Source of the DNA: Candidatus Desulfobacula maris
GTDB lineage: Bacteria; Desulfobacterota; Desulfobacteria; Desulfobacterales; Desulfobacteraceae
NCBI GenBank assembly: GCA_014383445.1
Contig: JACNHV010000250.1
Span: forward strand, 1-34,024
Direction: 5' to 3'
Length of the DNA stretch: 34,024 nt
In this document: piece by piece, positions 1,786-21,215 of the stretch
Layout: each line of letters opens with the position of its first letter
Position numbering within the stretch: position 1 is the first letter of the stretch
Translations under genes and position numbers: made by a program
Notes under the pieces: model-generated
Seen by the model: only the letters and a program-made list of their open reading frames with translations
Database searches by the model: none
What the model was told of the DNA's origin: nothing

Positions 1786-2062
1786 GATATCCGGAACAAG
1801 CTTTATATGAAAGTAGTGAGATTTGAGTTTTGAGTAGTGAGAAAAAACCATCAGTCTATCCCCCCTCACATCTCATATCTCACATCTCATTACTCTTTCA
1901 TTTTTTGTTGTGCCCGCAAGGGCATGGGTGTTAGTAGAAGCGTTTTATCTGACAGGTGATATCGAGAAATATGGGACCGGGTTTGTTCGTATCAGAAAAA
2001 AACTTGATGAGCTAAAGACTGCGATTTTTAAAATTAGTGAAATTGCGGATTTTTTCAAGGGT
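1786..2062 (+). pseudogene. Remnant of an AlbA_2/ATP-binding-type protein (C-terminal piece), split by a 134-bp element
   Basis: Two pieces of one gene. Codons from 1786 read DIRNKL; after the inserted element the frame resumes at 1934 as VEAFYLTGDIEKYGTGFVRI and then RKKLDE up to about 2062. 'RNKL-x-EAFYLTGDIEKYGTGF' is the typical ATP-binding C-terminal segment of Schlafen AlbA_2-domain / 'AAA-4' transcriptional-regulator-like proteins. The N-terminal domain is missing, the left piece has an upstream in-frame stop, and the right end runs directly into a truncated SWIM gene in opposite orientation near 2050-2062. The gene is dead. Assignment rests on one conserved segment. Confidence 0.6.
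1802..1935 (+). mobile_element. 134-bp non-autonomous element, copy 1 (inverted, identical copy at 20979-21112)
   Basis: This segment is identical, base for base by eye, to the reverse complement of 20979-21112. Both copies interrupt a protein-coding sequence. It has no open frame of note. Its interior carries GTGAGATTTGAG-like and CTCACATCTCATATCTCAC-like stretches that are imperfect complements, and near the right end a perfect 5-bp hairpin with a GCAA loop (TGCCC-GCAA-GGGCA, about 1910-1923). No transposase is inside, so if mobile it is a MITE-type passenger. Exact borders are uncertain by about 5 bases because both targets share TT...AGT. Confidence 0.65.
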
Positions 2063-2385
2063 TTGATGGTGATGTTGACCTTGTAGGGAGCGGCATAGTT
2101 TCCCTGGACAAGGGCTGCAATTTTTCCGGAGTCGATTTTCAGGTCCAGAACCGCCCCGTGCCGGACATAGGACCGTCCTCTTCCGATACGGTTGCTGAAG
2201 TCTGCGTATCCTTCCAAGTTTGAATTCCATGCCCTGCCCCACCAGGACGCTGCCAGTTTGCTGCCGGAAATGGTTACCGGCGCCAGGTCTGGATTTTTTT
2301 TCCTGAGCTGTTTGATTTTCTTTTCTGCTTTGGCCCTTTTTTCAGCAACACTGACATATTTTGGATATCCGTAGCGATTGCGCAT
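2049..2385 (-). pseudogene. SWIM zinc-finger family protein, truncated N-terminal part
   Basis: Starts at ATG 2385 with an AGAGGG ribosome binding site. Residues 1-112 match the conserved N-terminus of SWIM zinc-finger proteins encoded next to SNF2 helicases: the signatures ASWWGRAWNSNLEGYADF and NRIGRGRSYVRHGAVLDL are clear, ending in YKVNITIKPLKK. After that the frame runs into antisense DNA of the AlbA_2-like remnant and stops at 1945, so the CxCx(n)CxH SWIM finger is gone. It lies 30 bases downstream of the helicase gene on the same strand, the usual two-gene arrangement. The junction around 2049-2062 marks a deletion or recombination. A residual 146-residue fusion product could still be translated but would lack the zinc finger. 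Confidence 0.75.
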
Positions 2386-2415
2386 GGTTTCCCTCTTTGG
2401 TTAACCCTGGATTTT

Positions 2416-5121
2416 TTACAGCCTGAGGCTGAACATCTCCAGCAGTTTTTTATCGTCAAACTCTGTGATCCATCCCCCGGTGGTGTCTGGTATCACGGCT
2501 TGTGCCATTTCTTTTTTGCTCTCAATCATGTCGTCAATATGGTCCTCAATGGTTCCCTTTGTGATAAATTTGTGCACCAGGACCCCTTTTTTCTGGCCGA
2601 TGAGAAAGGCCCTGTCCGTGGCCTGGTTTTCCACTGCAGGATTCCACCACCTGTCAAAATGGATCACGTGGTTTGCCCGGGTCAGGTTGAGTCCCACGCC
2701 CCCTGCCTTGATGGAAAGCACCATAAAGGGAGTATAGTCTGATCCCTGGAATTGCTCAACCGCTGCCTTTCTTTTTTTTACGTTCATGCTGCCATGGAGA
2801 AAGCAGCCCTGCCGGTGAAAAATCTCTGCCATGAACGCCACCAGGGGCGGGATCATCTCCTTGAACTGGGTAAAGACCAGCACCCGTTCCCGCTTGGCAT
2901 AAATGGTTTCGCACAATTCCCTGAGCCGGATGAATTTACCGCTTTCCTCGGGGTCAAACCCGCCGGTTCCCAGGTACTGGTCCGGATGGTTGCAGATCTG
3001 CTTGAACTTGATCAGCGATGTCAGGATCAGCCCCTTGCGCTCTATCCCCTTGTCGGCCCGGGCCAGGCGTTTTTTTAGCTGCCCGACAAAATCTGTATAC
3101 AGCACTATCTGGTGCCGACTGAGTTCAGGAAAGGTTTTCATCTCCACCTTGGCCGGCAGATCCGGTGCAATGGCAGGATCGGTTTTCATACGTCTCAGGA
3201 TATAGGGGGAGATGATCTTTTTCAGGCGAAGGTACCCGGAAGGATCTTTTTTCAGTCCTGCGGCAAAGGTTTTAAATGCCTTGGCACTGCCCAGGAATCC
3301 GGGATTGAGAAAATCGAACAGGGACCACAGATCTGAGAGACTGTTTTCAATGGGCGTGCCCGTCATGATGATCCGGGTGTCGGCCATAAGCTTTTTGACG
3401 CATCTGGTTTGTTTGGTTGACGGGTTTTTTATGGCCTGGGCTTCGTCCAGGATGATGCTTCGCCAGTGAATTTTTTCCATCCATGGGACCCGCTGCGCCA
3501 TGGCATAGGTGGTGATGATGAGATCAAATCTGCCGGGATCGGGCGGGCGGGACCCTTTTTTTAACCCTGTGTCTGCGCTTCCGGGATGGGCCACGGCATA
3601 GGCAAGGCCGGGCAGGAATCGTTGGATCTCCTGTTCCCAGTTGGCGATCAGGGATGCCGGGACAATGAGCAGGGACATGCTGTCGGGTTCCCGTTTCTGG
3701 AAAAGACTTAGCATGCCCAGCACCTGCAGGGTTTTGCCCAGGCCCATGTCGTCGGCCAGACAGGCCCCGAATTTCATGGAATCCAGGAATGACAGCCAGT
3801 TGAGCCCCACCTGCTGGTAGGGCCGCAGGGTTGCCCTTAAGGCTTTGGGTGCAGTGGCGGTCCTGACCTGTTCCGGGTTTGACAGCTGCTTGACCACGGT
3901 GTTGAGCCGGTCGCCATGGGCAAAGGACAGGTCGGTCAGGTTTTCCGTCAATTGAAACCGTTCCGGGTGAAGCTGAAGCAGCAGGGCTTCCTTTAGGGTT
4001 AAGGCACCTTCCTCAACCATTTCCATGGCCTGTTCATAGGCGGCAAGGACCTGTTCCAGCCGCTGGGTGTCCACTTCCACCCATCGGTTTTTGATCCAGG
4101 CCAGGCCCGCACTCTGGGACAAAATGGCAGTGGCTTCTTCCGGGGTGATTGGATCATCCCCGATCATGAGCAGGGCGTTGAAATCCAGGAGCGCGTCCAT
4201 GCCCACATGGGAGGGTGCAAGATTTCCCATGCTGATGGACAGCCGCACGGCCGGCCGCTGATTTTTCCACCAGTCCGGGATGCGGCAGATGATGCCGCAG
4301 GTTTCAAAATGCGGCACCTGCCGGAGAAACTCATAGGCCTCCTGGCTGTCCCAGGCCAGGTGATGAAACAGATCGCCTGTATCCATGAGATCTTTTATCA
4401 TGGGGCTTTGTTTTGCTGCCAGTGTGACCGTGGTCAAAAGTTCCAGCAGGGATTCTCCGGCATATTCTTCAAGGGCATGGTGCAGGGGGCGGTGCTTTTT
4501 GGGGCTGCCGTCTTTGTCCCCGGCCGCATAGGTGGCCAGAAACTGGAACGGGTAGTCGTTCTCTTTGTTTTCCACCAGATGGAAATAGACCCTGCCGGCC
4601 AGGTGAATATGGGGGCATAAGTTTTTGAAAAAGTCTGTGACACTTCCGGGATACGCCTGTATGCCCTGGACAAAGGCCTGGGTTAACTGTTCCCAGATAT
4701 GAACGAGCAGGTCCCGGGTCAGATACTCCCTGCCGATCATGAGGGGGGCTGCATCAACAAAACGGTTTATAGTTTCAGGGTCACAGACAAGGTCGGCACG
4801 ATGGCGGACCGCCTCGATTTCCGGATACCGGGCCACGGTGTCTAAAAAGGTCCGCGAAAGGGACCGGAAAAAGTCAAGGGACGCAGATAAGGCAATACGG
4901 TCCTGGGAACCTCCCAGGTACAGCAGCCAGGTGTCCGGGGTCTTGACATAGTGGTCATGGATGCTCTGGTCCAAAAGATGCTGTTTCTGACTGACCCTTT
5001 CACTGCTGCTTTCCCATGTGAGGCACAGGTCTTGGGGGGGAAGAATTTCAACAACCAGTTCCTGATAATTTTTGGCAGCCACAGCTTTTCCTTTGTTCAG
5101 GCTGTTGTATGATAAGCACAT
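2416..5121 (-). CDS. SNF2-family DEAD/DEAH-box helicase
   Basis: 901 residues, the usual size for bacterial SNF2/HepA-like ATPases that pair with a SWIM protein. The N-terminal 430 residues match the SNF2-associated helper region. Helicase motifs in order: motif I DDMGLGKT (residues 457-464), motif II DEAQ (559-562), motif III MTGTPIENSLSDLW (near 586), motif V GGVGLNLTRA, and motif VI QATDRAFLIGQ. Motif VI normally reads DRxxRIGQ; residue 840 is Leu (codon CTC) where the conserved Arg is expected, which may weaken or abolish ATP hydrolysis. The start at 5121 is the first ATG in frame. It is transcribed with the truncated SWIM gene. The biological role of such pairs is not settled; SNF2 enzymes translocate on double-stranded DNA and remodel bound protein. 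Confidence 0.88.
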   Translation of the reverse strand: MCLSYNSLNKGKAVAAKNYQELVVEILPPQDLCLTWESSSERVSQKQHLLDQSIHDHYVKTPDTWLLYLGGSQDRIALSASLDFFRSLSRTFLDTVARYPEIEAVRHRADLVCDPETINRFVDAAPLMIGREYLTRDLLVHIWEQLTQAFVQGIQAYPGSVTDFFKNLCPHIHLAGRVYFHLVENKENDYPFQFLATYAAGDKDGSPKKHRPLHHALEEYAGESLLELLTTVTLAAKQSPMIKDLMDTGDLFHHLAWDSQEAYEFLRQVPHFETCGIICRIPDWWKNQRPAVRLSISMGNLAPSHVGMDALLDFNALLMIGDDPITPEEATAILSQSAGLAWIKNRWVEVDTQRLEQVLAAYEQAMEMVEEGALTLKEALLLQLHPERFQLTENLTDLSFAHGDRLNTVVKQLSNPEQVRTATAPKALRATLRPYQQVGLNWLSFLDSMKFGACLADDMGLGKTLQVLGMLSLFQKREPDSMSLLIVPASLIANWEQEIQRFLPGLAYAVAHPGSADTGLKKGSRPPDPGRFDLIITTYAMAQRVPWMEKIHWRSIILDEAQAIKNPSTKQTRCVKKLMADTRIIMTGTPIENSLSDLWSLFDFLNPGFLGSAKAFKTFAAGLKKDPSGYLRLKKIISPYILRRMKTDPAIAPDLPAKVEMKTFPELSRHQIVLYTDFVGQLKKRLARADKGIERKGLILTSLIKFKQICNHPDQYLGTGGFDPEESGKFIRLRELCETIYAKRERVLVFTQFKEMIPPLVAFMAEIFHRQGCFLHGSMNVKKRKAAVEQFQGSDYTPFMVLSIKAGGVGLNLTRANHVIHFDRWWNPAVENQATDRAFLIGQKKGVLVHKFITKGTIEDHIDDMIESKKEMAQAVIPDTTGGWITEFDDKKLLEMFSLRL

Positions 5122-5204
5122 GGTTCCATGGAGGATCTCAATATCAGATTAGGGGGCGGGACGCAACCCCCGTAAAATAGAATCTATGCCGGTGCCACTG
5201 TTGT

Positions 5205-5346
5205 CCGCATATCATTCATGACGGGGTGGTCTTTGAGTGGGATATACCATACAAAAAATACATACAGGGCATGTTTCCGGTACTATTCCGCCTTGTCAGT
5301 TCTAAATCGCAGGTGTAAAAATCATTTTTATGACATTTCCCTTATT
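5205..5346 (+). repeat. Direct repeat R2, left copy, flanking the KilA-N/R-M relic
   Basis: About 141 bases that recur in the same orientation at 7603-7743, with roughly ten differences and one gap by hand alignment. The block begins CCGCATATCATTCATG and ends at TTATGACA(T/C)TT. It contains no gene. Together the two copies bracket a 2.25-kb segment holding defence-gene remnants, as expected for an inserted segment or for repeats that support excision. Confidence 0.75.
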
Positions 5347-5893
5347 GTTGGAGAAAATTCTGCGACAGCAAAAATTGATTCCCGTTGCTAAAATAAGAGA
5401 TTTAAGAAAAAGGCCACTGGTAAAACGGCGGCATATTTCAAGGCCGATTATTTCTCCACGGATGGACCAGCAGAGAAAAAAGGTCAGGCAACCAAAAAAA
5501 AAGCCGGAAAGCACAGTCAGCACAACCCAGGAAAATTCGGCAAGCACAGTTACCACGACAAAGAGATTCCATAAACCACGGCCAAGAGAAACAAAAAAGA
5601 GGCAGGAACTGATCCAAAGGAATGACATACCTTTTGATGACACCTTAAAAAATGTTCAATGATTTGGGAGACGTAATATGATTTTCGTATATGAAAGTCA
5701 TAGGCAAGTCCCAATCCCAGCCAGATGGAGATGGGTCGAAGACGCGGAGCCAAGTGCACTGAACACCCAAATAACCGATCACACCAGGTTCATTGGGCTT
5801 GTTGGAATTAAGTATGCTGTCCCCGGAATTTCAAGCGAACATCCGGCTCAAGAATATCATGTGGGGAATCGGGAAAATCCGGATGTAGCGCCA
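5347..5893. other. Region with no recognisable gene between repeat R2 and the KilA-N gene
   Basis: Three overlapping frames cross 5330-5662 (one very Lys/Arg-rich on plus, one very hydrophobic on minus, one Lys/Gly/His-rich on plus without a start). They are alternative readings of the same skewed DNA, and none matches a family I know. A 126-codon frame on plus from 5678 has a GGGAG before its ATG but runs antisense into the KilA-N gene and over a REP-like motif at 5804-5831; I do not accept it as a gene. Confidence 0.4.
5804..5831 (+). repeat. REP-like motif (GGAATTAAGTATGCTGTCCCC)
   Basis: Resembles the two motifs at 29778-29802 and 29811-29836 beside the REP-associated transposase remnant (shared GGAATTAAGxAxGxTGTCCC core). 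Such motifs commonly border REP-associated tyrosine transposases. Here it stands alone, suggesting a trace of an older event within the relic locus. Confidence 0.4.
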
Positions 5894-6712
5894 TTATTTG
5901 CTTCCTCCCAATTTTTCTACGCCATGATCGGCAATCAGAAGTTTCATCTGATGAATAGCAATACTATTCAATTTTTTCAGCCGCTCTTTTTGCGCCATCC
6001 CCTCATCGATAAAAAGGGCATTGATGTTTTCAAGATTAGAAAGACATACCAGTTGTGAGATATTGGCATAATCACGAATATTACCTTTCAGGGCAGGGTT
6101 TTCATCTTGCCATTGTTTTGCCGTTTTGCCGAACAGAGCAACATTCAACACATCCGCTTCCAGTGCGTACACAAAATTAATCTGGCTTTTGGACAGTTCC
6201 GGGGGGATCAGATTGTTTTTAATGGCATCGGTGTGAATGCGGTAGTTGATCTTTGCCAGATTGCGCTTTATATCCCAGCCCAGCTGTTTTAGTTCTTCAT
6301 CTTTCAACCGCTGAAATTCTTTAATCAGATAGAGCTTAAATTCCACGGAAATCCAGGAAGCAAACTCAAAAGCTATATCCTTATGGGCATAGGTTCCACC
6401 ATACCTGCCCGGTTTTGAAATAATACCGATAGCTTTGGTTTTTTGAACCCATTGTTTTACTGTAAGGACAAAGCCGTTTGAACCGCTTTCATTTTTAATG
6501 TTACTGAATTCAGTAACATTAAAATCAGGATTATGTATTTTTTCCCAGACCCCCATGAATTCAACTGTAAACCGGGTGCTGAGCCAGTGAGAAATAATTA
6601 ATCCTGTTGTTTGGGCATTTTTATACTTTGCAATGTCGGTAATGCATATATAATCTTCGTCGTCGCGGGTGTAGAGTGTTATTTCTTTGTCCAACACGTT
6701 GATCTTTACCAT
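5894..6712 (-). CDS. KilA-N domain-containing protein
   Basis: 272 residues, starting at ATG 6712 behind a strong AGGGGGG ribosome binding site. Residues about 5-115 form a KilA-N domain, a phage/nucleocytoplasmic-virus-type DNA-binding module; typical signatures are TGLIISHWLSTRFTVEF, GRYGGTYAHKDIAFEFASW and FKLYLIKEFQRLKDEE. The C-terminal half, rich in charged helices (ALFGKTAKQWQDENP and onward), matches the tail seen in chromosomal homologues. Related genes often sit within restriction-modification loci, and here it follows a methyltransferase C-terminal fragment on the same strand by about 75 bases. The frame is intact although its neighbours are broken. The function is unknown; DNA binding is inferred. 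Confidence 0.85.
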   Translation of the reverse strand: MVKINVLDKEITLYTRDDEDYICITDIAKYKNAQTTGLIISHWLSTRFTVEFMGVWEKIHNPDFNVTEFSNIKNESGSNGFVLTVKQWVQKTKAIGIISKPGRYGGTYAHKDIAFEFASWISVEFKLYLIKEFQRLKDEELKQLGWDIKRNLAKINYRIHTDAIKNNLIPPELSKSQINFVYALEADVLNVALFGKTAKQWQDENPALKGNIRDYANISQLVCLSNLENINALFIDEGMAQKERLKKLNSIAIHQMKLLIADHGVEKLGGSK

Positions 6713-6788
6713 GACTTTCCCCCCTGATGCCTAACTTTAATCCCATCGAATTCGATGGAGTTAAGCCCCTCTTTACTTTGTGTTCTTA

Positions 6789-7226
6789 TCACACCGTCAC
6801 TTCAATAATCTTCATGGTATCATTGCCAAAAATATCAACCACTTTCACAGCAACCTTGCACCGTCCGGGAACACGTTCCACAAAAGCACTTTTCAGCTCC
6901 AGAGACCGGTCTTTTTTGGTGCGAAAGGATTGCCATTCATTCTCAAACACGTAATCCCCCGTCCAGACTTCCTCAATTTCTCCACTTTCCGGATTTTTTA
7001 TCCGAAGAATTTCCCGTTTGGATTCAAAATCAAAATCCACGGACCAGTAATCAATCCAGTCCGTCCATTTTTTGGTCAACACTTCACGGCTGACATCATG
7101 GAACACCACCTGATTTTTTTCAATTGCCCGTTTGTCAAAGACTTCGCGGGGGATATATTTCATGGCAAGGTCAATGCCTTTGCTTTTTCCCCTGAAAGCA
7201 GTTAAACTGACTGACCCCTTCGGCAC
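6789..7226 (-). pseudogene. C-terminal fragment of a type III-like DNA methyltransferase (Mod)
   Basis: The frame covers only the C-terminal ~130 residues of a Mod-type site-specific DNA methyltransferase. Recognisable blocks are YIPREVFDKRAIEKNQVVFHDV, the W-D/S-VDFDF stretch, FENEWQSFRTKKDRSLELKS, and the terminal VAVKVVDIFGNDTMKIIEV. The SAM-binding FxGxG and catalytic DPPY motifs belong to the missing N-terminal part. The fragment abuts a RhuM N-terminal fragment, so the body of the operon has been deleted. It cannot methylate DNA. Confidence 0.65.
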
Positions 7227-7247
7227 GGTAGGCGTGCATTATAATAA

Positions 7248-7514
7248 TCAAGACATCTTTATTACTTCACTGCTTCCTTCTTTTCGAACTGTCAAGTATT
7301 CCTTGACAGTTATTTTTGGAAACAACTCCTGTTCTTTATAAATATTGTTTATATTTAGACTTATATTTTGTTTTGTGGTTTGAAAAAGATCTGCCATAAG
7401 CTGCTGTGTCAGCCAGACTGTTTCATCGGACAATTTCACATCTATTTTGACAGTCCCATCTTCTGCTTTATAGACTAAAAACTGTCCTTTTGAATTTTCT
7501 ATTTCATTTTTCAT
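7248..7514 (-). pseudogene. N-terminal fragment of a RhuM-family protein
   Basis: From ATG 7514 the product reads MKNEIENSKGQFLVYKAEDG, then TVKIDVKLSDETVWLTQQLM and ADLFQTTKQNISLNINNI. This is the clear N-terminus of RhuM ('virulence protein RhuM/Fic-associated') proteins, which are about 330 residues long. After VRKEGSSEV the family pattern breaks, with a possible out-of-frame continuation DYYN near 7235, and the frame stops at 7248. About three quarters of the gene is missing. It is joined to the methyltransferase fragment downstream. Confidence 0.65.
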
Positions 7515-7526
7515 AATTCTTAGCAC

Positions 7527-8090
7527 TCCGGCTTTGATAGCGAACGAGTAATTTAGCGGTTGTCCGCATATCTCCGCAATTTGGTTAATGTCTTTTTTCT
7601 AACCGCATATCATTCATGGCGGGTGGTCTTTGAAAGGGATATACCATACAAAAAATACATACAGGGCATGTTTCAGGTACTATTCCGCCTTGTCAGCTCT
7701 AAATCGCAGGTGTGAAAATTATTTTTATGACACTTTCCTTATATAAAAGAAGGTTGAATTAAGCAATAGGTATAAATACCTATATTTGTTAAATATATTA
7801 AAAAGTTTTATGGTTTTGAAAATAATGGCAGAGCGCCTAGACGATATGTGTGAGAGCCCAGTCGTGCTTTTGCGCAATCTGGGGGACTTAAAATCCATTG
7901 GATAAATCGCTATTCGGCCATTTTGCCAATCCTGGCATTTTGGCCAAATAGAAGGCTGTGGCTAGATTTTCTTTTTTTAGAACAACCACAGCACTCTGAG
8001 AACAGACCAGATGAAATCTTTCTTGTGATTCTCTTACTCTTTATGCTACAAGTTTTTTAAACACTGCAATTCATAACGGAGGTAAAAAAT
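7527..8090. other. Intergenic region upstream of the DHH gene, containing repeat R2 right copy
   Basis: About 560 bases. Holds the right R2 repeat (7603-7743), a 26-codon ATG frame at 7825-7905 without a ribosome binding site, an imperfect inverted repeat built on GGCCATTTTGCCA near 7917-7947, and a perfect 7-bp stem GCTGTGG/CCACAGC spanning 7955-7992 with a T-rich loop. The last might be a terminator or a leader structure for the DHH gene. No promoter was assigned. Confidence 0.4.
7603..7743 (+). repeat. Direct repeat R2, right copy
   Basis: Second copy of 5205-5346, about 93% identical by hand alignment. It sits between the RhuM fragment and the DHH phosphoesterase gene. A partial echo, TTGTCCGCATAT, also occurs just upstream at about 7559-7571, as it does at the left copy. 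Confidence 0.75.
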
Positions 8091-9008
8091 ATGCGACTGG
8101 TAACCAGATCAGACTTTGACGGCCTTGGTTGTGCGGCCATTCTAAAAGAGGTGGGAAAGATTGATGACATCAAGTTTGTTCATCCCAAGGATGTTCAGGA
8201 TGGAAAAATAGAAGTTACATCCAATGATATACTGGCCAATATACCCTATGTAAAGGGTTGCGGCGTATGGTATGACCATCACTCAAGTGAACAGGAACGA
8301 AAGGCCTTTGGTGAATTTAAAGGAAAGTGTGATCCCACAGCTTCCAGTGCCGCACGGGTGGTTTACAATTTTTATGGCGGATATGACGGGTTTAAAAATG
8401 ACCATCTGGATGATCTGGTTGATGCAGTGGACAGGTCTGATTCAGCACTATTCACTAAAGAGGAGATACTTGATCCTGATGGCTGGGTCCTGTTATCCTT
8501 TGTCATGGACCCAAGAACGGGCCTTGGCCGGTACAGAGACTATAGGATCAGCAACTATGCCCTTATGATGGACATGATCGACTATTGCCGTGAAAAGACA
8601 GACAAACAGATTCTTGAGCTTCCTGATATAAAAGAGCGAACCATTCGCTATTTTGAGCAGGACAAGCTGTTCCGTGAGATGCTGCTGCAGAACAGCACGG
8701 CCCATGATTCAGTGGTACTGCTTGACCTGCGTGATCAGGAAGAAATTTATACAGGGAACAGGTTTCTGTTATACAGCCTTTTTCCTGAACAGAACATTTC
8801 CATGACTGTTATGTGGGGTTTTCAACGTCAGAACATTGTAATCACCTGTGGCTACAGCATCATTAACAGAACTGCCACGGTGGATGTTGGATCATTGATG
8901 TTAAAGCACGGCGGCGGAGGTCATCATCGAGTGGGAACCTGTCAGGTTTCAGTGGAAAAGGCAGAACAAGCCATTAGGGAAATTCTGGAAACACTGAACA
9001 AGGGATAA
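8091..9008 (+). CDS. DHH-family phosphoesterase
   Basis: 305 residues with an ideal GGAGG ribosome binding site 7 bases before ATG 8091. The DHH superfamily motifs are present: motif I RSDFDGLGCAAIL (Asp8, Asp10), motif III YDHHSS (Asp62, His63, His64), and a C-terminal DHHA1 glycine-rich motif GGGGHHRVGTC near residue 283. These residues bind Mn ions for cleaving phosphoesters; relatives include RecJ, NrnA (nanoRNase/pAp phosphatase) and PPX-type exopolyphosphatases. The missing RecJ-type extra domains and the small size favour an oligoribonuclease/pAp- or polyphosphate-type enzyme, but the substrate cannot be told from sequence. It is monocistronic and convergent with recD2. Confidence 0.85.
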   Translation: MRLVTRSDFDGLGCAAILKEVGKIDDIKFVHPKDVQDGKIEVTSNDILANIPYVKGCGVWYDHHSSEQERKAFGEFKGKCDPTASSAARVVYNFYGGYDGFKNDHLDDLVDAVDRSDSALFTKEEILDPDGWVLLSFVMDPRTGLGRYRDYRISNYALMMDMIDYCREKTDKQILELPDIKERTIRYFEQDKLFREMLLQNSTAHDSVVLLDLRDQEEIYTGNRFLLYSLFPEQNISMTVMWGFQRQNIVITCGYSIINRTATVDVGSLMLKHGGGGHHRVGTCQVSVEKAEQAIREILETLNKG

Positions 9009-9010
9009 TC

Positions 9011-12639: not shown

Positions 12640-14991
12640 TCAGTCAAGGGCTAGTTCCAATACGCTTTCCATTTTATCAACAAAGTAAAATTCAATGAAA
12701 TTTTTTATATAATCCGGCACATCCTCCATATCTTTTTGATTCCATAGCGGCAGAATAATCTTTTTAATTCCTGCCCTATGAGCTGCAATCACTTTTTCCT
12801 TGATCCCTCCCACGGGCAGAACTTCTCCTCTTAGGGTAATTTCACCACTCATGGCCAGACGTTTTTTCACAATCCGTCCTGTCATCAATGATGTCAAACA
12901 GGTCAGCATTGCCACACCGGCCGAAGGACCATCCTTTGGTATTGATCCCTCTGGCACATGAATATGAAGATCATGATTGTTGAAAAAGGCTTCATCCACG
13001 TTTAATTTTTTTGCATTGGCCCGGATAAAGCTTAAGGCAGTGCTGGCAGATTCTTTCATGACATCCCCAAGCTGCCCTGTTAAGGTAAGGTTTTTCCCCC
13101 CTTTCATGGCCACGGCCTCTATAAAGAGGATCTCTCCCCCATAGGGAGTCCAGGCAAGCCCCACAACAACCCCGGGATTTTCTATCCTCAACGCCAGATC
13201 CGGCATATTTGATACAGGGCCCAGATATTCATGCAGATCTTTTTGACCCACAATAAGATTTTTAGCTTTTTTTTCTGCAATTTTGCTTGCAACTCCCCGG
13301 CAAACTGATCCGATATGCCGTTCCAGGTTTCGCAAACCTGATTCCCTTGTATATCCTGAAATAATTTTTTTCACGGCACCAAAGGTAATTTTAACCTGGG
13401 TTGAATTTAGACCGTTTGCATCCCTTTGCCTGGGAACCAGATACCGTGTAGCGATTTTTAATTTTTCCTCTTCCGTATAACCGTTCAGTTCAAGAATTTC
13501 CATCCTGTCTCTCAGGGGTGCCGGGATTGTATGGAGCACATTTGCCGTAGTTAAAAACATCACATCGGAAAGATCAAAGGACACATCCAGGTAATGATCT
13601 GAAAAAGAAAAATTCTGTTCCGGGTCAAGGACTTCCAAAAGGGCGGAAGAAGGATCTCCATGATAGGAGGAGCTCACCTTGTCGATCTCATCCAGCATGA
13701 ACACGGGATTTTTTGTGCCGGCTTTTCTCAAACACTGGATAATTCTTCCTGGAAGCGCACCCACATAGGTTCTTCTATGACCCCTGATTTCAGCTTCATC
13801 CCGAACCCCTCCCAGGGCAATTCTGACAAACTCCCGGCCCAGGGCTCTGGCAATAGATCTGCCAAGGGATGTTTTACCCGTGCCTGGAGGGCCTGTAAAA
13901 CAAAGAATCGGGCCTTTGGAATCGTTTTTTAATTTACGAACGGCCAGATATTCAAGAATCCTTTTTTTGGGTTTTTCAAGACCATAATGGTCATTGTTCA
14001 GTATTCTTCTTGCTTCTTTAATATCCAGTTTATCCTTTGACCGCTGATTCCAGGGCAAAGATGTCAGCCAGTCAAGATAGGTGGATGCCACCACATATTC
14101 AGAAGAAGAAGGATGCATCCGAGACAATCTCTGCAACTCTCTTTTCCCTTCTTTTTGTGCTTCTTCAGACAAACCTTTTTCTTCAATTTTAGTCTGGTAT
14201 TCTTTTATTTCAACTCTATCGTCTTCCGTTTCACCCAGCTCTTCTTTAATGGCTTTCATCTGTTGACGAAGATAGTATTCCCGCTGGCGCTTATCCATAT
14301 CTTCTTTTACCTGGGTCTGGATCTTGGAGCCCATTTCCAGGATTTCCAATTGATCATTGACAAGCCGGGTCACTTTTTTCAAACGTTTAGTGACATCCAG
14401 CAGCTCGATAACCTTTTGTTTTTCCAGGACGGGTGCATTAATGGTGGAGGCAACCATATCTGCAAGAACATTGGGTTCCTGCAATGATTTGATCATATGG
14501 CCCATTTCTGACGGAAGCCCAGGGGAAAGGTTTACAACTTTTTCATATTGTTCAACAATATTGACCATCAAGGCCCGGTTTTCTTTGTTCCTGTCAGCAT
14601 TTCTATTTTCCAGGACATCAATTTGCGCCTGTATATATTTTTTGCCGGAAAGAAATTTTTTGACCCTGAAACGGTCTAAACCCTGTATTAAAAGCTGGGC
14701 TTTATCATCTTCCATTTTGGACATTTTTAAAATAATGGCTATGGTACCGATCATGTGGAGATCATTTGCCGTGTGTCTGGAATCAATATCAGATCGTTTG
14801 GATAAAAGCAGTCCCAGCATCCTGTTCCCGGACATGGCCTCATCAATCAGCTCCACTGCTTCATTTTGAACCAATACCAGAGGCAATACCATTTTGGGGA
14901 AAAGATTGGTGTCAACGATGGGAAGAATTGGTATAATATTGGGAATATTATCTGAAGTTATATTGCGTGAGGGAGCCTTAAGATCATCCAT
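12640..14991 (-). CDS. lon: ATP-dependent protease Lon
   Basis: 783 residues, normal for bacterial LonA. The N-terminal substrate-binding domain begins IPNIIPILPIVDTNLFP and covers about 20-215, followed by a coiled-coil segment (215-300). The AAA+ module has Walker A GPPGTGKTS (367-375) and Walker B FMLDEID (431-437). The protease domain has catalytic Ser690 (PKDGPSAGVAM) and the dyad Lys in GGIKEK (728-733). Lon degrades misfolded and regulatory proteins. It follows hsp20 by 31 bases, a natural heat-shock pairing. All catalytic residues are present. Confidence 0.96.
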   Translation of the reverse strand: MDDLKAPSRNITSDNIPNIIPILPIVDTNLFPKMVLPLVLVQNEAVELIDEAMSGNRMLGLLLSKRSDIDSRHTANDLHMIGTIAIILKMSKMEDDKAQLLIQGLDRFRVKKFLSGKKYIQAQIDVLENRNADRNKENRALMVNIVEQYEKVVNLSPGLPSEMGHMIKSLQEPNVLADMVASTINAPVLEKQKVIELLDVTKRLKKVTRLVNDQLEILEMGSKIQTQVKEDMDKRQREYYLRQQMKAIKEELGETEDDRVEIKEYQTKIEEKGLSEEAQKEGKRELQRLSRMHPSSSEYVVASTYLDWLTSLPWNQRSKDKLDIKEARRILNNDHYGLEKPKKRILEYLAVRKLKNDSKGPILCFTGPPGTGKTSLGRSIARALGREFVRIALGGVRDEAEIRGHRRTYVGALPGRIIQCLRKAGTKNPVFMLDEIDKVSSSYHGDPSSALLEVLDPEQNFSFSDHYLDVSFDLSDVMFLTTANVLHTIPAPLRDRMEILELNGYTEEEKLKIATRYLVPRQRDANGLNSTQVKITFGAVKKIISGYTRESGLRNLERHIGSVCRGVASKIAEKKAKNLIVGQKDLHEYLGPVSNMPDLALRIENPGVVVGLAWTPYGGEILFIEAVAMKGGKNLTLTGQLGDVMKESASTALSFIRANAKKLNVDEAFFNNHDLHIHVPEGSIPKDGPSAGVAMLTCLTSLMTGRIVKKRLAMSGEITLRGEVLPVGGIKEKVIAAHRAGIKKIILPLWNQKDMEDVPDYIKNFIEFYFVDKMESVLELALD

Positions 14992-15022
14992 TATTCTAGG
15001 GGTTCCTTTTGGAATCCATGGC

Positions 15023-15475
15023 TTAAATGAAATCTATGGAAACATTTTGTTTCCCCTTAATTTCTTTATTTAAAAATTTTCCAAGGGTAAGCTCTAAAAA
15101 CCCATTGGAAAAAATAGCAGATACTTTTTCAACATCAATAATACTTGGCAGGTATAAAACCCGTTCAAACTGTCCGAATTGTATTTCTGCAAGTCTGTAT
15201 GTGGCTGTCTGGTCAGGATGGTTACTTTTTCTACTGCCTGAAATTTTAACGGCTTTGTTGCTGACTTCAATAACAATATTTTCTCTTTTTACACCTGCTA
15301 TTTCAACCTGGATAATGATTTCACTTCTTGTCTCAAGTATATCCATCTGGGGTTTCCATATCCGTTTTGAAAAACAAAACATGGGATTAACGGATTGAAA
15401 CAATCCTCCAAAAGATTTTTCTTCAGTTGTTTGTGTTTCAATATTATCTCCAAACCGTATTTCTATATGTTTCAT
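15023..15475 (-). CDS. Hsp20/alpha-crystallin small heat-shock protein
   Basis: Start chosen at ATG 15475 (150 residues) because AGGAG lies 5 bases upstream; an earlier in-frame ATG at 15508 lacks a ribosome binding site. The alpha-crystallin domain spans about residues 40-135: PQMDILETRSEIIIQVEIAG, KISGSRK, the QFERVLYLP strand, and the closing AIFSNGFLELTLGK (the A-x-x-x-n-G-x-L signature). Small Hsps hold unfolding proteins as oligomers for later refolding or proteolysis, here probably by the adjacent Lon. It is the first gene of the hsp20-lon-rlpA-gmhB-recD2 run. No obvious CIRCE or sigma-32 element was found. Confidence 0.9.
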   Translation of the reverse strand: MKHIEIRFGDNIETQTTEEKSFGGLFQSVNPMFCFSKRIWKPQMDILETRSEIIIQVEIAGVKRENIVIEVSNKAVKISGSRKSNHPDQTATYRLAEIQFGQFERVLYLPSIIDVEKVSAIFSNGFLELTLGKFLNKEIKGKQNVSIDFI

Positions 15476-15522
15476 ATTAACTCCTGATGATACTGGTAAA
15501 TCAATCATCTGATAATTTGATT

Positions 15523-15551
15523 AAAATACCATTTGACTCAGATATTGTAAA
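15523..15551 (-). promoter_or_regulatory. Candidate promoter of the hsp20-lon cluster
   Basis: On the minus strand TTTACA (15551-15546) and TATTTT (15528-15523) are 17 bases apart, giving a predicted start near 15516 and a 40-base leader before hsp20. It is moderate against the sigma-70 consensus. No CIRCE inverted repeat or sigma-54 GG-N10-GC pair is evident nearby. Confidence 0.4.
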
Positions 15552-15621
15552 GCGGTATTAAAAAACACTATTCTGTAAAAGCCCTGGCAAGTTAGAAGAG
15601 TTAGCTCATGCCACAGCCTTT

Positions 15622-17214
15622 TTATGTTTTATCCAGTATTTTTCGCAGGGTTTGAGCAAATGTACTCAAGGAAAATGGTTTTTGAATAAATCCATGGCAT
15701 CCCTGGTTTAAAAACCCTTCTATTTTATCATCAACGGCCTGGCCCGTGGATATTAGTATTTTAGCATCTTTCTGGATATTTTTGATTTCTAAAAAAGCTT
15801 GTTTCCCATCCATTTCCGGCATGATCAAGTCAAGGACAACCAAAGAAATTTCCTCTTTGCAACGTCTGAATATCTCAATAGCCTCCACCCCATTTTTTGC
15901 AATCATGGGTTTATAACCAAGGTATTCCAGAAATTTTTTGCCTATATTTATAACAGCTTCATCATCATCCACCAGCAGCACGGTTTCAGATCCTTTTTGC
16001 ATGTGATCAAAGGGAAGAGATTCCTTTTTCATCTCTTTTAACTGGATATTTTTGGATGCAGGCAAATAGATATGAAATCTTGCACCTTTGCCTTTTTCAC
16101 TGTCAACCAGAATAAAACCGCCATGATTTTTTATGATGCCATAAACAGTAGACAGTCCTAAGCCCCGACCCTTGTTATTGCCAATTTCTTTTGTGGAAAA
16201 AAACGGGTCAAAAATTTTTTTCTGGGTTTCCAGATCCATGCCAGTGCCTGTATCTTTGATCGTCAATTTAACATATGGCCCGGGCTTGACCTCAAAGGGA
16301 TAATCATTGTCCTTATTAATAATAATATTTTGGGTTGTCACGAAAATATCGCCTGATTCAATAATGGCCTGGGATGCATTGTCCAACAAGTTCAAAAAGA
16401 CCTGCTCAAGCTGGGAAGAGTCTGCATTCACTGGTTGGAGATTTTCTTCATAGTTTTCATGAATGATAATATCTTTTCGGGCAGGCTTAAAAATAGTCAA
16501 AATAGATGCAAATAGCTGGTTTATATTCAATGTTGAAATCTGATATTTCCCACCCCTTGCAAATCCAAGCAACCGCTTTGTAAGTTCAGATGCAGTTTCC
16601 ACAAGCCGGCCAATACGCTTGGCATGGGTCGTCACTTTTTCCGTGGCCGATACATCAATCTGTAATAACGATAAGTGTCCTTGAATACCCATTAGAATAT
16701 TGTTGAAATCATGGGATACCCCACCCGCCAATAACCCGATGGCTTCCATTTTCTGGGCCTGCTGAGCCTGAACCTGAAGCCGCTTGAGTTCTGAGATATT
16801 AGTAATAACAAAGATAATGCCTTTTGACGGATCATTTGCGTTGAGTCTTGAAACCCTGATCATGCAGTCAATGGAATTACCATCTTTTTTTTTCAATGTT
16901 GTTTCAACAAGGCCTTTGCCATGTGTATCCAATTTGGAATACAATTCAACCCCGACTCTGTCATATTCTTTTTGATCAGCATATAAACATCTTGTATTTT
17001 TCCCTTTGAGAGAATCAGGTTCATACCCGAGCATTGAACAGAAAACATTATTGGTCCAGCCAAGAACCCTGTCTTTTATGATTCCAATCCCTGCAGGGGA
17101 AGATTCCAACACTGCCTTCATTTCCCGGGGGGTCAATTCCTGTTTATTGAAAGGCTCCTTTTTTATTGAAAGGCCTTTGGAAGATTTTTTAACACTTTTA
17201 TGCTCAGGTTTCAT
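15622..17214 (-). CDS. PAS-domain hybrid histidine kinase with receiver domain
   Basis: 530 residues with no transmembrane segment, so cytosolic. One PAS domain (about 33-145; AGIGIIKDRVLGWTN, MLGYEPDSLKGK). HisKA with phospho-acceptor His168 in GGVSHDFNNILMG. HATPase with N box EQVFLNLLDNASQAI (N-box Asn275 area), DTGTGMD (321-327) and GRGLGLSTVYG. C-terminal receiver domain (about 410-528) with acidic residues DDD 416-418, phospho-acceptor Asp462 (VVLDLIMPEMDG) and Lys512. The architecture is typical of deltaproteobacterial sensor kinases with a built-in receiver; no output domain follows. It is divergent from lnt and upstream of the hsp20 cluster by about 145 bases. The ligand is unknown. 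Confidence 0.93.
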   Translation of the reverse strand: MKPEHKSVKKSSKGLSIKKEPFNKQELTPREMKAVLESSPAGIGIIKDRVLGWTNNVFCSMLGYEPDSLKGKNTRCLYADQKEYDRVGVELYSKLDTHGKGLVETTLKKKDGNSIDCMIRVSRLNANDPSKGIIFVITNISELKRLQVQAQQAQKMEAIGLLAGGVSHDFNNILMGIQGHLSLLQIDVSATEKVTTHAKRIGRLVETASELTKRLLGFARGGKYQISTLNINQLFASILTIFKPARKDIIIHENYEENLQPVNADSSQLEQVFLNLLDNASQAIIESGDIFVTTQNIIINKDNDYPFEVKPGPYVKLTIKDTGTGMDLETQKKIFDPFFSTKEIGNNKGRGLGLSTVYGIIKNHGGFILVDSEKGKGARFHIYLPASKNIQLKEMKKESLPFDHMQKGSETVLLVDDDEAVINIGKKFLEYLGYKPMIAKNGVEAIEIFRRCKEEISLVVLDLIMPEMDGKQAFLEIKNIQKDAKILISTGQAVDDKIEGFLNQGCHGFIQKPFSLSTFAQTLRKILDKT

Positions 17215-17309
17215 AAAAAATTACCGGTTAAAGATTCTATCATTTGACTGCCTATCTACTAATTGTTAAGTATAGCAGACTTTTTTTAATAATATAAGAT
17301 AAGAAATGA

Positions 17310-18956
17310 ATGATCCATCAAAATAAAAACATTGTTTTGCTGAAATATATTCCAGCTTTGATAAGCGGCCTGGCTTTGACCCTGTCTTTTCCTAAAGCAA
17401 ATTTATCGTACCTGGTTTTTTTTGCCATGGTCCCCTGGTTTATGTCCATGGGGTCAATGACATCAAAAGAATCTTTTTATAGTGGTTTTATCGCAGGGCT
17501 TTTTCATTTTCTCACCCTTATTTACTGGATTGTCCCGACCTTAAATGTGTATGGCGGACTTCACCCGGTTCTTGCTGTTTCCACACTCATCCTTTTATGC
17601 CTTTATCTTTCACTTTATCCGGCTATTTTTGCCTTTCTTTTAAAACAGATGGATGCAAATTATTGGGTTGCACCCATTGCTGCCGCCTGTGTCTGGACTG
17701 GGCTTGAATATATCAGGACCTATGCTTTCACAGGCTTTTCCTGGGGGGCTCTGGGCTACAGTCAGTATGAAAACCTGCTGCTGATCCAGATTGCAGATTT
17801 TTCCGGGGTTTATGGAGTGTCATTTCTCATCGTTCTTATAAATTATCTTTTGGCAACCCTGGGGTTATCCCTTAAAAAAGGACTGCACAAAAAACATGTT
17901 TTTTCTATCATGTATACTATCATCCTGTTCGCAGGCGCTGTTTTTTACGGGGATCAAAAAATCAATACCTTAAATTCTCAAATTGAAAAAGTAAAAAAAC
18001 CGATCCTTACTATTGTTCAGGGAAATATCAGGCAGGATTTAAAATGGAGTGACCAGTTTAAGACCCGGACGCTGGAAAAATATATTCATCTTTCCCAGGA
18101 AGAATTTAAGAATGCTGGATACCTGGAAAAGCCTGACCTTGTGATATGGCCGGAAACAGCTTTGCCGTTTTATTACGGATATGATAAAAATCTGTCAAAC
18201 CGGGTGGATCAATTTGTAAGGGCATCAAAAACAAATTTTTTAATTGGAAGCCCGGCATTTAAAATAGATGAACACAAGACAAAATTTTATAACCGGGCGT
18301 ATATGTTTAACCGGTTTTCGATTATTACAGGAACTTATGACAAGACTCACCTTGTGCCATTTGGAGAGTACGTTCCTTTTGGTAAGTATCTGACATTTTT
18401 AGGGAAGCTTACTGCCCAGGCAGGTGATTTTTCCACTGGCGATAAAACATTTAATCCCCTTGAATTCAATGATCATAACCTGAAGGTCACAAGTAACCTG
18501 AAGGTCACAAGTAACCTGAAGGTCACAAGTAACCTGAAGGTCACAACTAAAACAGGGGTGCTCATTTGTTTTGAAATTTTGTTTCCATCCATTGCATCCA
18601 GGTTTGTAAAAAACGGGGCTGATATCCTCACCACCATTACCAATGATGCCTGGTTTGGTCATACATCGGCAGCAGCGCAGCATTTTTCCATTGCCGTATT
18701 CAGGGCTGTTGAAACCCGCAGAACCATAGCAAGAGCTGCAAATACCGGGATTTCAGGTTTTATTGATCCTAAGGGGAAAATTCTTGAAACAACGGCTTTA
18801 TTCACAGATCGGGCAGTCACACGACAGGTTCCAGTCCTGAACCAGATCTGTTTTTATACAAAATACGGGGATGTTTTTGCCATTTGTTCAATAGTTGCAA
18901 TCTGCATGGTTTTTATGGTAAAAGGTTTCAGGAAAAAGTTTTGGAAAAAAGTCTAG
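17310..18956 (+). CDS. lnt: Apolipoprotein N-acyltransferase
   Basis: 548 residues. Six to seven N-terminal membrane helices (about 10-210, plus one near 520-540) and a periplasmic carbon-nitrogen hydrolase domain. The catalytic triad is visible: Glu282 (IWPETALPF), Lys345 (YDKTHLVPFGEYVPFG) and Cys420 (GVLICFE). The enzyme transfers the third acyl chain from phospholipid to the N-terminal Cys of lipoproteins, completing maturation for outer-membrane sorting. The Lys-Cys distance is 75 residues against 52 in E. coli; the excess is accounted for by four tandem NLKVTS hexapeptides directly before the Cys strand. It lies 11 bases before prfB on the same strand, so likely one operon lnt-prfB-HD. 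Start ATG 17310 lacks a strong Shine-Dalgarno. Confidence 0.93.
   Translation: MIHQNKNIVLLKYIPALISGLALTLSFPKANLSYLVFFAMVPWFMSMGSMTSKESFYSGFIAGLFHFLTLIYWIVPTLNVYGGLHPVLAVSTLILLCLYLSLYPAIFAFLLKQMDANYWVAPIAAACVWTGLEYIRTYAFTGFSWGALGYSQYENLLLIQIADFSGVYGVSFLIVLINYLLATLGLSLKKGLHKKHVFSIMYTIILFAGAVFYGDQKINTLNSQIEKVKKPILTIVQGNIRQDLKWSDQFKTRTLEKYIHLSQEEFKNAGYLEKPDLVIWPETALPFYYGYDKNLSNRVDQFVRASKTNFLIGSPAFKIDEHKTKFYNRAYMFNRFSIITGTYDKTHLVPFGEYVPFGKYLTFLGKLTAQAGDFSTGDKTFNPLEFNDHNLKVTSNLKVTSNLKVTSNLKVTTKTGVLICFEILFPSIASRFVKNGADILTTITNDAWFGHTSAAAQHFSIAVFRAVETRRTIARAANTGISGFIDPKGKILETTALFTDRAVTRQVPVLNQICFYTKYGDVFAICSIVAICMVFMVKGFRKKFWKKV
18477..18546 (+). repeat. 18-bp in-frame tandem repeat inside lnt, 3.9 copies
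   Basis: AACCTGAAGGTCACAAGT repeats from 18477 with three perfect copies and a fourth ending at 18546. It encodes NLKVTS four times (the last NLKVTT). The copies are identical at DNA level, indicating recent slippage expansion. Because the unit is a multiple of three, copy-number changes keep the frame. Confidence 0.97.
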
Positions 18957-18967
18957 GAGAAATTAAA

Positions 18968-20057
18968 ATGAGTGTAGAATTAAACCAAAATATTCAAACC
19001 ATATATACCAAAGCTGAAAAACTCAAGGAGTATCTTTGACCTTCCTTTAAAGCAAAAGCGGTTCCGTGAACTTGAACTAATTATTGCCCGGGAAGATTTC
19101 TGGAACGATTCAGACAAAGCAACGGATCTCTTAAAAGAAAGAACCTTGCTTTTAAATCTTCTGGAAACCTGGAAAAACATTTACCAAGATATTGAAGACG
19201 CAGAGGTCCTTCTGGAACTTGCCCTTGAAGAGTCAGATAAGGAGATTGAAAATGAAGTGGCCGCCCTTTTATCCATACTTGAGAAAAAAATAAAAAAATT
19301 TTCAATCCAGATCACCCTTAACGACGAAGATGATGCAAGAGATGCTCTTGTTTCCATTAATGCCGGTGCCGGTGGGACAGATTCCCAGGATTGGGCGGAA
19401 ATGCTGTTTCGCATGTACACCAGATGGATTGATAAAAAAGGATATAAATGTCAGATTATTGACTATCAGCCAGGGGATGAAGCCGGGATTAAGGGCGCAA
19501 CCCTTCGTGTGTCAGGAGTTAATTGTTATGGGTTTATGAAGGTTGAATCCGGAGTCCACCGCCTTGTGAGGATTTCACCCTATAGCGCAAGCGGGAAACG
19601 CCATACATCATTTGCATCAGTATTTGTCTATCCTGAAATAAAAGATGAAATTACAATCGATATTGAAGAGTCAGATCTGAGAATTGATGTGTATAGGGCC
19701 AGCGGTGCCGGCGGCCAGCATGTGAACAAGACCAGCAGTGCCGTCAGAATCACCCATCTACCCACTGGTGTGGTGGCCCAGTGCCAGCAGGAATCCTCCC
19801 AGCACCGCAACAAAGAGATTGCCTTTAAGGTTTTAAAATCAAGGCTTTATCAGCTTGAAAAAGACAAGCAGGATAAAAAAATGCAGAATCTCCATGACGG
19901 CAAAGATGATATAGCCTGGGGTAGCCAGATCAGATCCTATGTTCTTCATCCCTACAGGATGGTTAAAGACCATAGAACAGATTTTGAAATGGGGGATGTG
20001 GACAGAGTCCTGGATGGAGACCTGGACCAGTTTATTGAAGGAGTTTTACTCTCATAA
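18968..20057 (+). CDS. prfB: Peptide chain release factor 2, programmed +1 frameshift
   Basis: Starts at ATG 18968 with AGGAG 8 bases upstream. The first 23 codons end CTT TGA (UGA at 19037-19039); translation must shift +1 at CTT and continue as GAC from 19038, giving about 362 residues. The GGQ catalytic motif is in ASGAGGQHVNKTSSAVRI. The stop-codon recognition tripeptide, normally SPF in RF2, reads SPY here (LVRISPYSASGKRHTSF). RF2 releases peptides at UGA and UAA and controls its own level through the UGA frameshift. The gene overlaps the start of the following HD gene. Confidence 0.95.
19026..19040 (+). promoter_or_regulatory. prfB +1 frameshift site
   Basis: AGGAG (19026-19030), then TAT, then the slippery CTT-TGA-C (19034-19040). 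Spacing of the internal Shine-Dalgarno to the CTT codon is 3 bases, and C follows UGA, both as in E. coli prfB. Low RF2 lets the ribosome slip +1; high RF2 terminates here. Confidence 0.97.
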
Positions 20058-20608
20058 AAATAAATCCCCTTGCCATTATTGAAAAATTTTATACTGCGGG
20101 CACAAAACCTTACCAGGTCCTTGTTGAGCACAGCCGGATTGTCACTGAAAAAAGCCTTGAGATTGCCCGCAGTCAGATGCACTTAAACCCTGATCTTGAA
20201 TTTATTGAAAAGGCTGCCATGCTCCATGATATAGGCATTTTTCTGACCCAGGCCCAGGCCATTGGCTGTACAGGTGAAAAACCTTATATCTGTCACGGAT
20301 ACCTTGGGAAAAAGCTTTTGGATGAACATGGCCTGCCCCCTGAATACGGCCTTGTCTGTGAACGACATACTGGTGCTGGAATTACAAAAGAAAACATTCT
20401 TTTAAACAATATCCCTTTGCCCCAGAGAGATATGGTTCCCATAAGCCTTGAAGAAAAAATTATCTGTGCGGCAGACAAATATCACTCCAAAAACCCAAAA
20501 TACTCTGACAAAAACATAACCACAATTCAAATTATCGATGAACTTGGAAAAATAAGTAAAGATCATGCAAAAAGATTTTCAATGTGGGCTGAAGAATTCA
20601 ACCTGTGA
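20054..20608 (+). CDS. HD-domain phosphohydrolase-like protein, apparent AUA start
   Basis: The conserved N-terminus (INPLAIIEKFYTAGTKPYQV, then LVEHSRIVTEKSLEIA) lies upstream of the first ATG (20177), and no ATG, GTG or TTG exists in frame between the preceding stop at 20036 and 20177. With the start at ATA 20054 the protein has 184 residues and keeps all HD metal ligands: His26, His58-Asp59 (AAMLHDIG) and a later Asp (CAADKYHS). Starting at 20177 would drop His26. AAGGAG lies at 20038-20043, and ATA overlaps the prfB TAA as ATAA, in the same geometry as an ATGA coupling overlap. HD proteins of this short type are likely phosphohydrolases; the substrate is unknown. Alternatives: an ATT start at 20075, or frameshift read-through from prfB. 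Confidence 0.75.
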   Translation: MKINPLAIIEKFYTAGTKPYQVLVEHSRIVTEKSLEIARSQMHLNPDLEFIEKAAMLHDIGIFLTQAQAIGCTGEKPYICHGYLGKKLLDEHGLPPEYGLVCERHTGAGITKENILLNNIPLPQRDMVPISLEEKIICAADKYHSKNPKYSDKNITTIQIIDELGKISKDHAKRFSMWAEEFNL

Positions 20609-21215
20609 TCAGCCGTACTTATCATCTGCAATAATGGCAGTGATGTGTTTCATAACGGCACTCTGATCGTGGCTTTTATCATCTGTTTCAATCCAATTTT
20701 TCAACCGCAAACCTTCGACTCTCACAAACTCACACATGTTGTTGGTGATCAGGATCAAAGATTTACTTCGGGCATGCCCGGCAATGTGCAAATCATTGAC
20801 CCCTATAGGAGTGCCTTTCTTTTCTAAATCCGCTCTTATATTTCCATAGTGGGCAAGCGGCATTATCGTCATAGGGCAAGACCTCCAAACGGGATACAAA
20901 ATCCTCAACTTTGCGTAGGTTGTGGGACACCATAGAGCTTTTTTCAACACCATCTAATAATTCTGCCAACGTGATTGAACTAACACCCATGCCCTTGCGG
21001 GCACAACAAAAAATGAAAGAGTAATGAGATGTGAGATATGAGATGTGAGGGGGGATAGACTGATGGTTTTTTCTCACTACTCAAAACTCAAATCTCACTA
21101 CTTTCATATAAATACACATCAGTCCTGCATGGGCGTTAAAAATGTCTAATACTTCAATTGGTCGACGCTTAATCACATAAATAACAATATTCGTGTCCAA
21201 CATATACTTTAACAT
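20609..21215 (-). pseudogene. vapC: vapC toxin (PIN-domain RNase), broken by insertion and frameshift
   Basis: Starts at ATG 21215: MLKYMLDTNIVIYVIKRRP then IEVLDIFNAHAGLMCI. At that point the 134-bp element enters and brings an in-frame TGA. Beyond the element the gene resumes as SSITLAELLDGVEKSSMVSH, with a second lesion near 20856 (one extra base), then YGNIRADLEKKGTPIGVNDL and HIAGHARSKSLILITNN. The PIN acidic residues (Asp in LDTN, Glu in LAEL, Asp in VNDL) are all still encoded, but across three frames. VapC toxins cleave tRNA or rRNA. The original stop is probably also lost, as the last frame runs on to 20609. Confidence 0.85.
20979..21112 (-). mobile_element. 134-bp non-autonomous element, copy 2, inserted in vapC
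   Basis: Reverse complement of 1802-1935 with no difference seen. Removing 129 bases (20982-21110) restores the vapC codons TGT ATT | AGT TCA (CI|SSI), the normal VapC sequence, so the insertion point is known nearly to the base. The remaining 5 shared bases derive from similar targets (TT..AGT). Carries the same GCAA-loop hairpin (about 20991-21004) and T-rich/A-rich tracts. Confidence 0.75.

Follow-up and report, generated by a model that had tools for sequence, protein, structure and literature searches.

The closest described counterparts of the small element reported here are laboratory constructs derived from insertion sequences (ISs) of the IS110 family. In the accessible part of one source, a mini-IS carrying mCherry between the ends of ISEc21 (left end 29 bp, right end 16 bp) was provided with transposase and RNA in trans, and cargo between the ends of ISEc11 was likewise moved by transposase and RNA supplied outside the mini-IS (PMC11187229). 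For other IS110 elements the available portion of PMC11208160 reports pairing over 8–14 nt, and as far as the text of the two sources is available the IS1111 group is described as having subterminal repeats of 7–17 bp and a transposase of 330–350 amino acids (PMC11208160, PMC11187229). The DNA analyzed here, referred to as the window, is a stretch of 34,024 nucleotides from Candidatus Desulfobacula maris (contig JACNHV010000250.1, positions 1 to 34,024), and it contains two copies of a 134-bp repeat. We conclude that this repeat is very probably a non-autonomous IS110-type mini-element, which has the ends of a resident IS and is likely to be moved in trans by a DEDD recombinase and a predicted bridge RNA (seekRNA).

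Anatomy, copies and insertion sites of the mini-element

The two copies of the repeat, at 1802–1935 and 20979–21112 of the window, had been described in an earlier note, made from the sequence alone, as a perfect inverted pair; they are 100% reverse complements over 134 nt. The block consists of an element body of 127 bp with TT at either end, plus AGT of the target. In copy 1, which lies on the forward strand, the body occupies 1804–1930, based on the 134-bp match and on ends that are constant across copies. It is preceded by a left TT core at 1802–1803, placed by a model of the borders that is based on the empty site of a different copy, and followed by a right TT core at 1931–1932, placed by the empty site and by comparison of right junctions; the target bases AGT (ACT on the other strand) are found at 1933–1935. 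Copy 2 lies on the reverse strand, with its left TT core at 21111–21112 (sequence and 134-bp match), its body at 20984–21110 (134-bp match), and its right TT core at 20982–20983 and target bases AGT at 20979–20981 (both from the sequence and the comparison of right junctions). The shared TT..AGT noticed earlier at both sites is real, TT being a two-base core present at both ends and AGT being target DNA.

Copies of the mini-element begin with TTTATATGAAAG, a few differing by one base, and complete copies finish with ...TTTCATnnTTTGTTGTGCCC-nnnn-GGGCATG-nnG-TT, with small variations. The element had been said to have no terminal inverted repeats. This holds for classical terminal repeats, but a subterminal inverted repeat is present, with its left arm ATGAAAG at 1807–1813 and its right arm CTTTCAT at 1895–1901 of copy 1; the assignment is based on the sequence and on arms that pair better within than between elements. 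A terminal hairpin, TGCCC-GCAA-GGGCA, is predicted by folding at 1911–1924 in copy 1, and the same letters are found at 20990–21003 in copy 2. By pattern reading, its stem was fully paired in all 39 loci of the related IS described below (TGTCC/GGACA in 26, TGCCC/GGGCA in 13, unpaired in 0).

The borders could not be placed from the two copies in the window, since one lies in a gene remnant and the other in a toxin-type gene. The proposed AlbA_2-like host of copy 1 was not recovered: AlbA_2 was not matched, a stop codon lies shortly upstream in the frame that had been used, and the 49-aa piece downstream matches PF13749 (RecG C-terminal) with an E value of 0.06, under the cut-off. For copy 2, reported to split vapC, the likeness stands in that both flanking pieces are weakly PIN-like, and the identification falls short in that both matches to PF01850 (E 0.013 and 0.17) are under the cut-off. 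Rfam gave no match at gathering score in the window.

The genome from which the window comes is a draft of 4.85 Mb in 400 contigs. At least 42 BLAST matches to the 134 bp were found in it, this being a lower bound since 40 of 80 candidates were scored; 7 are perfect over the full length, and the presence of the 134 bp without mismatch at 7 places excludes chance. Many matches end at contig ends after 54–55 bases, as expected where an assembler meets a multicopy repeat. Among the fetched loci of this genome, 36 distinct left junctions belonged to the small element and 4 to a larger one. Of 30 distinct right junctions, one of them that of the IS itself, 23 have AGT after the right TT. The remaining triplets were ATT (2), TAT (2), TTA (2), and GGT (1), and these include two tandem junctions and one locus (L037) at which the search pattern had slid past a changed base. 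The three target bases carry 1.23, 1.09, and 1.65 bit, and the left flanks at most 0.22 bit at each of ten positions in a set that included 6 non-mini strings, indicating that the target is short and one-sided. Several mini-elements (L013 on C278, L024 on C121, and L026 on C156) are located just upstream of predicted start codons or in intergenic positions, where effects on expression are possible.

Comparison with relatives, as the note had advised, yielded one empty site at the DNA level. The locus on contig C4 (L015) has a counterpart without the element in genome G022, with 93% and 96% identity around the element. The left match stops at query position 601 and the right match starts at 729, with the subject going back one base, which gives a net insertion of 129 bp; the mini-element is the insertion and has the predicted length. 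The same length had been guessed earlier for copy 2, as the number of bases whose removal would restore its host gene. At a second locus (C378, L019) the element interrupts a gene of unknown function, the two pieces of which were searched separately. The homologue P0001, 94% identical, has exactly two residues between the two pieces, as predicted, and the length of P0003 agrees with the same prediction. An all-against-all search for empty sites among the fetched loci gave 28 candidates, mostly matches between tandem arrays, and no clear site between species. These data support the proposal of a recently moved, non-autonomous mobile element that lacks classical terminal inverted repeats and an ordinary target duplication.

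The IS110-family partner and its RNA region

Matches to the 134-bp block are present in 16 of 26 genomes of the genus, the source genome included. Several of these genomes match just the last ~40 bp, and at four loci (L059, L060, L062, and L072) such matches are the ends of ~1.7-kb elements that begin with TTTATATGAAACACC and have a single gene, located on the opposite strand. Both ends of the mini-element are common to this ~1.7-kb IS, which is found whole in relatives. The IS protein matches PF01548 (DEDD_Tnp_IS110; E 1.2e-21) and PF02371 (Transposase_20; E 2.3e-15), and its sole match in the PDB is the IS621 recombinase (E 3.4e-7). The two-base core is present at both borders with no longer duplication, as determined at the DNA level for the mini-element and by comparison of junctions for the IS. 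The subterminal inverted repeats of the IS, ATGAAACAC/GTGTTTCAT, and an RNA region after the gene are as in the IS1111 group; its open frames, mostly 406–450 aa in full-length copies, are longer than those of that group. In the source genome the IS is seen at contig ends: C191 holds a right end together with the beginning of the gene (89% over 215 bp), and left ends are present at four others. On C377, a left end of the IS forms a tandem with two mini-elements. The only PF01548 match of this genome, on C33 (L100), was rejected as a partner, being a different IS110-family gene (a 472-aa open frame) with no mini-element ends in the locus.

IS110 and IS1111 elements often choose repeats as targets, and the IS and mini-elements occur in tandem (L021/L103), as might be seen if the repeat were a target family for IS110 insertion, similar to repetitive extragenic palindromic (REP) sequences and not itself mobile by this system; the accessible text on IS1111 and QMITE2 in Coxiella offers a comparison (PMC5896051). 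Against this, both IS ends are also found inside the IS at non-repeat sites, and comparison with the empty site shows that what was inserted there is the mini-element. This site largely refutes the explanation, to which we give almost no weight. Forty-five IS-bearing loci from 17 genomes were examined in gene orientation. Downstream of the IS gene lies the arrangement GAGCGCG-NN-NNN-AACATGAC, and at the 5' junction the sequence is NNN-AA-C, in which NNN belongs to the flank. Guide and junction were recognized by pattern in 37 of the 45 loci, and those in which one or the other was not recognizable (L084, L154, L162, L163, L183, L184, L185, and L187) were dropped. At 34 of the 37 IS junctions, the three guide bases that precede AA are identical to the three target bases of the flank, across four guide classes (TAT 24/27, AAT 6/6, ACT 3/3, TAG 1/1; 10/10 for the non-TAT guides). 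Permutation of guides among 14 genome-guide units gave a mean agreement of 14.0 and a maximum of 31, with 0 of 20,000 permutations reaching 34; junctions of one genome share one guide, so that few independent guide changes underlie this result. A fourth base agrees in 24 of 37, and agreement beyond it is no higher than background. On the other flank, the core is followed by A in 36 of 37 IS junctions and the sequence is just A-rich beyond; we read this A as the element's own base.

The non-coding region downstream of the IS gene is a conserved, covarying RNA region, and we predict that it contains the guide. Nineteen distinct copies align with a mean column identity of 73%, and the consensus fold has 22 pairs, 11 of them with two-sided changes and standard pairs in 97.6% of cells. 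None of 500 shuffles (mean 0.232) and no slid version reached the covariation score of 0.418, a comparison favored by the derivation of the consensus structure from the same alignment; by the measure of further pair types, 456 of 500 shuffles scored as high. In the inner loop, CATATAAA, which is the IS's own terminus, is found on one side, and G(C/T)ACAACnAA, which is also found beside the terminal hairpin, on the other; we consider these two strings to be putative donor guides. A search of four IS loci against Rfam returned just two irrelevant matches, below gathering score.

These results also bear on the mechanism favored by the earlier note, in which the repeat is a single-strand passenger of IS200/IS605 or REP/RAYT type, mobilized by a Y1 (HUH) transposase. 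The hairpin near one end, the fixed left string, and the lack of target duplication beyond TT are consistent with such a passenger, and the genome has 5 matches to the Y1 transposase (PF01797). None of these belongs to an element with matching ends: by pattern search, the Y1 loci lack the right end, and a single chance-like left string was found (L048). Both ends are instead those of an IS110-family (DEDD) element, and the target bases of that element follow and covary with its RNA region, leaving a Y1 passenger extremely improbable.

Spread and diversity in related genomes

The end motif GTTGTGNCCNNNNGGNCATGN{2,4}GTTA was present in 43 of 86 genomes of the family, with 0 in the control and a maximum of 77 in one genome (G031), and relatives of the transposase (E ≤1e-60) were found in 18 of the 86. 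Five genomes (G056, G064, G065, G067, and G077) have 18–34 ends each (34 in G056, 25 in G067, 20 in G065) and no such transposase. A scan of named species genomes gave at least 110 stretches, and 80 listed loci were analyzed. Among the matches listed, most are from Desulfamplus, Desulfotignum, Desulfobacula, Desulfobacter, and Desulfocicer, and a few are from metagenome-assembled genomes (MAGs) labeled Desulfohalobiaceae, Desulfarculaceae, and Nitrospirae. At six loci in MAGs labeled Desulfohalobiaceae or Nitrospirae (L191, L202, L215, L229, L254, and L262) the end motif often has ATT or GTT before the core; its presence there may reflect either spread between phyla or mis-binned contigs.

The 80 listed loci contain 87 ends, 37 of them with a left end within 450 bp. 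Mini-elements in these related genera measure 57–232 bp between cores, and a few of the longer ones are two elements in tandem. Interiors differ widely across elements, and the inner arms pair within an element more than with the arms of other elements: among 32 dissimilar elements kept from 75, 118 of 256 positions paired, as compared to shuffles that averaged 79 and did not exceed 109 (0/5000 as high). This variation argues against a further possibility, that the mini-element is more than a passenger and that its own hairpin RNA, or a transcript free of open reading frames, acts as a guide or regulator partly independent of the IS RNA. The 134 bp does fold, under DNA parameters, into a long imperfect hairpin, and on either strand it does so much better than its shuffled versions (z -4.8 and -4.3). 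The fold, however, stems largely from the imperfect inverted repeat, the conserved motifs of the IS RNA (such as GAGCGCG and AACATGAC) are absent from the 134 bp, and the interior of other mini-elements differs and can be nearly absent (57 bp). We regard an independent guide or regulatory role as very unlikely.

The match of the TAT-AA guide to the terminus CATAT-AA-A agrees with the tandem arrays and with flanks of the kind TTTCATATAAC; because this guide class matches the element's own terminus, it would direct insertion beside existing copies and so build tandem arrays. One complete genome (G057) contains tandem arrays of mini-elements and IS copies (L155, L158, and L160–L162), and at the 3' junction of L161 the next element follows directly after the terminus, as insertion at CATAT-AA would give. 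Such arrays are also reminiscent of integron cassettes.

The window also contains other repeats. Positions 5224–5345 and 7621–7742 form a direct repeat of 122 nt with 93% identity, 2397 bp apart and unrelated to the mini-element, and 18476–18547 consists of four tandem copies of TAACCTGAAGGTCACAAG within the open reading frame at 17310–18956, the fourth differing at its last base; at L094 (G018), a left end like that of the mini-element likewise runs into TAACCTGAAGGTCA.

Proposed mechanism and comparison with known systems

In the mechanism that we propose, the recombinase and RNA would pair the two ends of the mini-element, which would then be joined at the TT core into a circle. The circle would recombine with a genomic NNN-AA target (here ACT-AA, TT-AGT on the other strand), and the core would be left at both borders. 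The interior would be free to vary, so that the element could shrink to little beyond its ends.

Several observations weigh against this interpretation. Three of the 37 IS junctions disagree with the guide, and the predicted donor-guide string CATATAAA is present in 14 of 19 RNAs, the other five having one-base variants. Folded singly, two of the RNAs are no more stable than their shuffled versions (z -1.4 and -0.8); since this folding is not significant, we relied on covariation. The interior of the IS, guide included, is absent from the draft assembly of the source genome. The empty site in G022 reads GGGAGG-TG-AGTA rather than the predicted GGGAGG-TT-AGTA, and this genome holds an unrelated extra stretch of ~90 bp located ~100 bp to the left of the site. 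Several genomes rich in ends gave no relative of the transposase at E 1e-60, and these may have lost the partner or harbor a more distant one. In G031 (nS315bin3) the targets of 20 mini-elements are mixed (AAT 6, TAT 7, GAT 5, ACT 1, TGT 1) and its one IS guide is AAT, which may be explained by older ISs with other guides; in G029 (nTSbin20) the mini-elements fit its TAT guide at 8 of 10. Given the mixed targets of G031 beside the TAT targets of G029, we did not use the targets of mini-elements in individual genomes as proof. Finally, we infer mobilization in trans, the function of the RNA, and circle formation from sequence comparison.

We think it probable that mini-elements of this type form a family-wide group of natural bridge-RNA elements, with IS110 ends, at least 57 bp between cores, interiors that are free to vary, a target of about five bases on one side, a shared recombinase and RNA acting in trans, and arrays produced by self-targeting. 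These would be the first described natural class of non-autonomous RNA-guided IS110 elements. No natural IS110-derived miniature element was found in the accessible portions of the literature on IS110/IS1111, MITEs (miniature inverted-repeat transposable elements), bridge RNA, and seekRNA, in which subscription papers and preprints were thinly covered (PMC9769881, PMC11578231, PMC3718332, PMC3852290, PMC3189936, PMC4852346). The parts are of known kinds, and their combination appears to be new. Such a class would account for a family of repeats that abounds in many Desulfobacteraceae-related genomes. Recombinases guided by bridge RNA are sought as tools for DNA insertion, and the mini-elements would represent nature's minimal-donor experiment, apparently performed many times, on which end bases are kept and on the minimum length of a donor; some five target bases may suffice for dozens of insertions. 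They may also offer an easy reading of guide-target pairs and a way to find active systems.

Like bacterial MITEs, as described in the accessible part of PMC10969869, the mini-element is small, gene-free, high in copy number, and carries the ends of a full IS. It has no transposase gene, and it also has neither the true terminal repeats nor the target duplication of a classical MITE; its inverted repeats are subterminal and unequal, its insertion is predicted to be RNA-guided, and just the TT core is repeated. QMITE2 of Coxiella is similarly a miniature element associated with an IS1111-type IS, but in the text available it is a target of its IS (PMC5896051), whereas the mini-element here carries the IS's own ends. 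The partner IS shares with the IS1111 group a downstream non-coding RNA region and subterminal inverted repeats, and differs in its larger transposase, of 418 aa or more, and in the ~36 bp that lie outside the repeat at one end. With IS621 and other IS110 elements, as far as PMC11208160 was available, it shares a DEDD recombinase with Transposase_20, a core dinucleotide at both ends, and an RNA with target and donor stretches, predicted in our case; it differs in its core, TT (AA), in having the RNA downstream of the gene, and in its short, one-sided target. The laboratory mini-IS, in the part of PMC11187229 available, has the same plan of two IS ends around a foreign interior, with supply in trans demonstrated there and proposed here. 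That element was built in the laboratory and has longer targets, whereas those described here are natural, occupy dozens of sites, and by pattern have about five target bases. If our interpretation is true, the mini-element is the natural counterpart of the stripped-down RNA-guided elements built in the laboratory.

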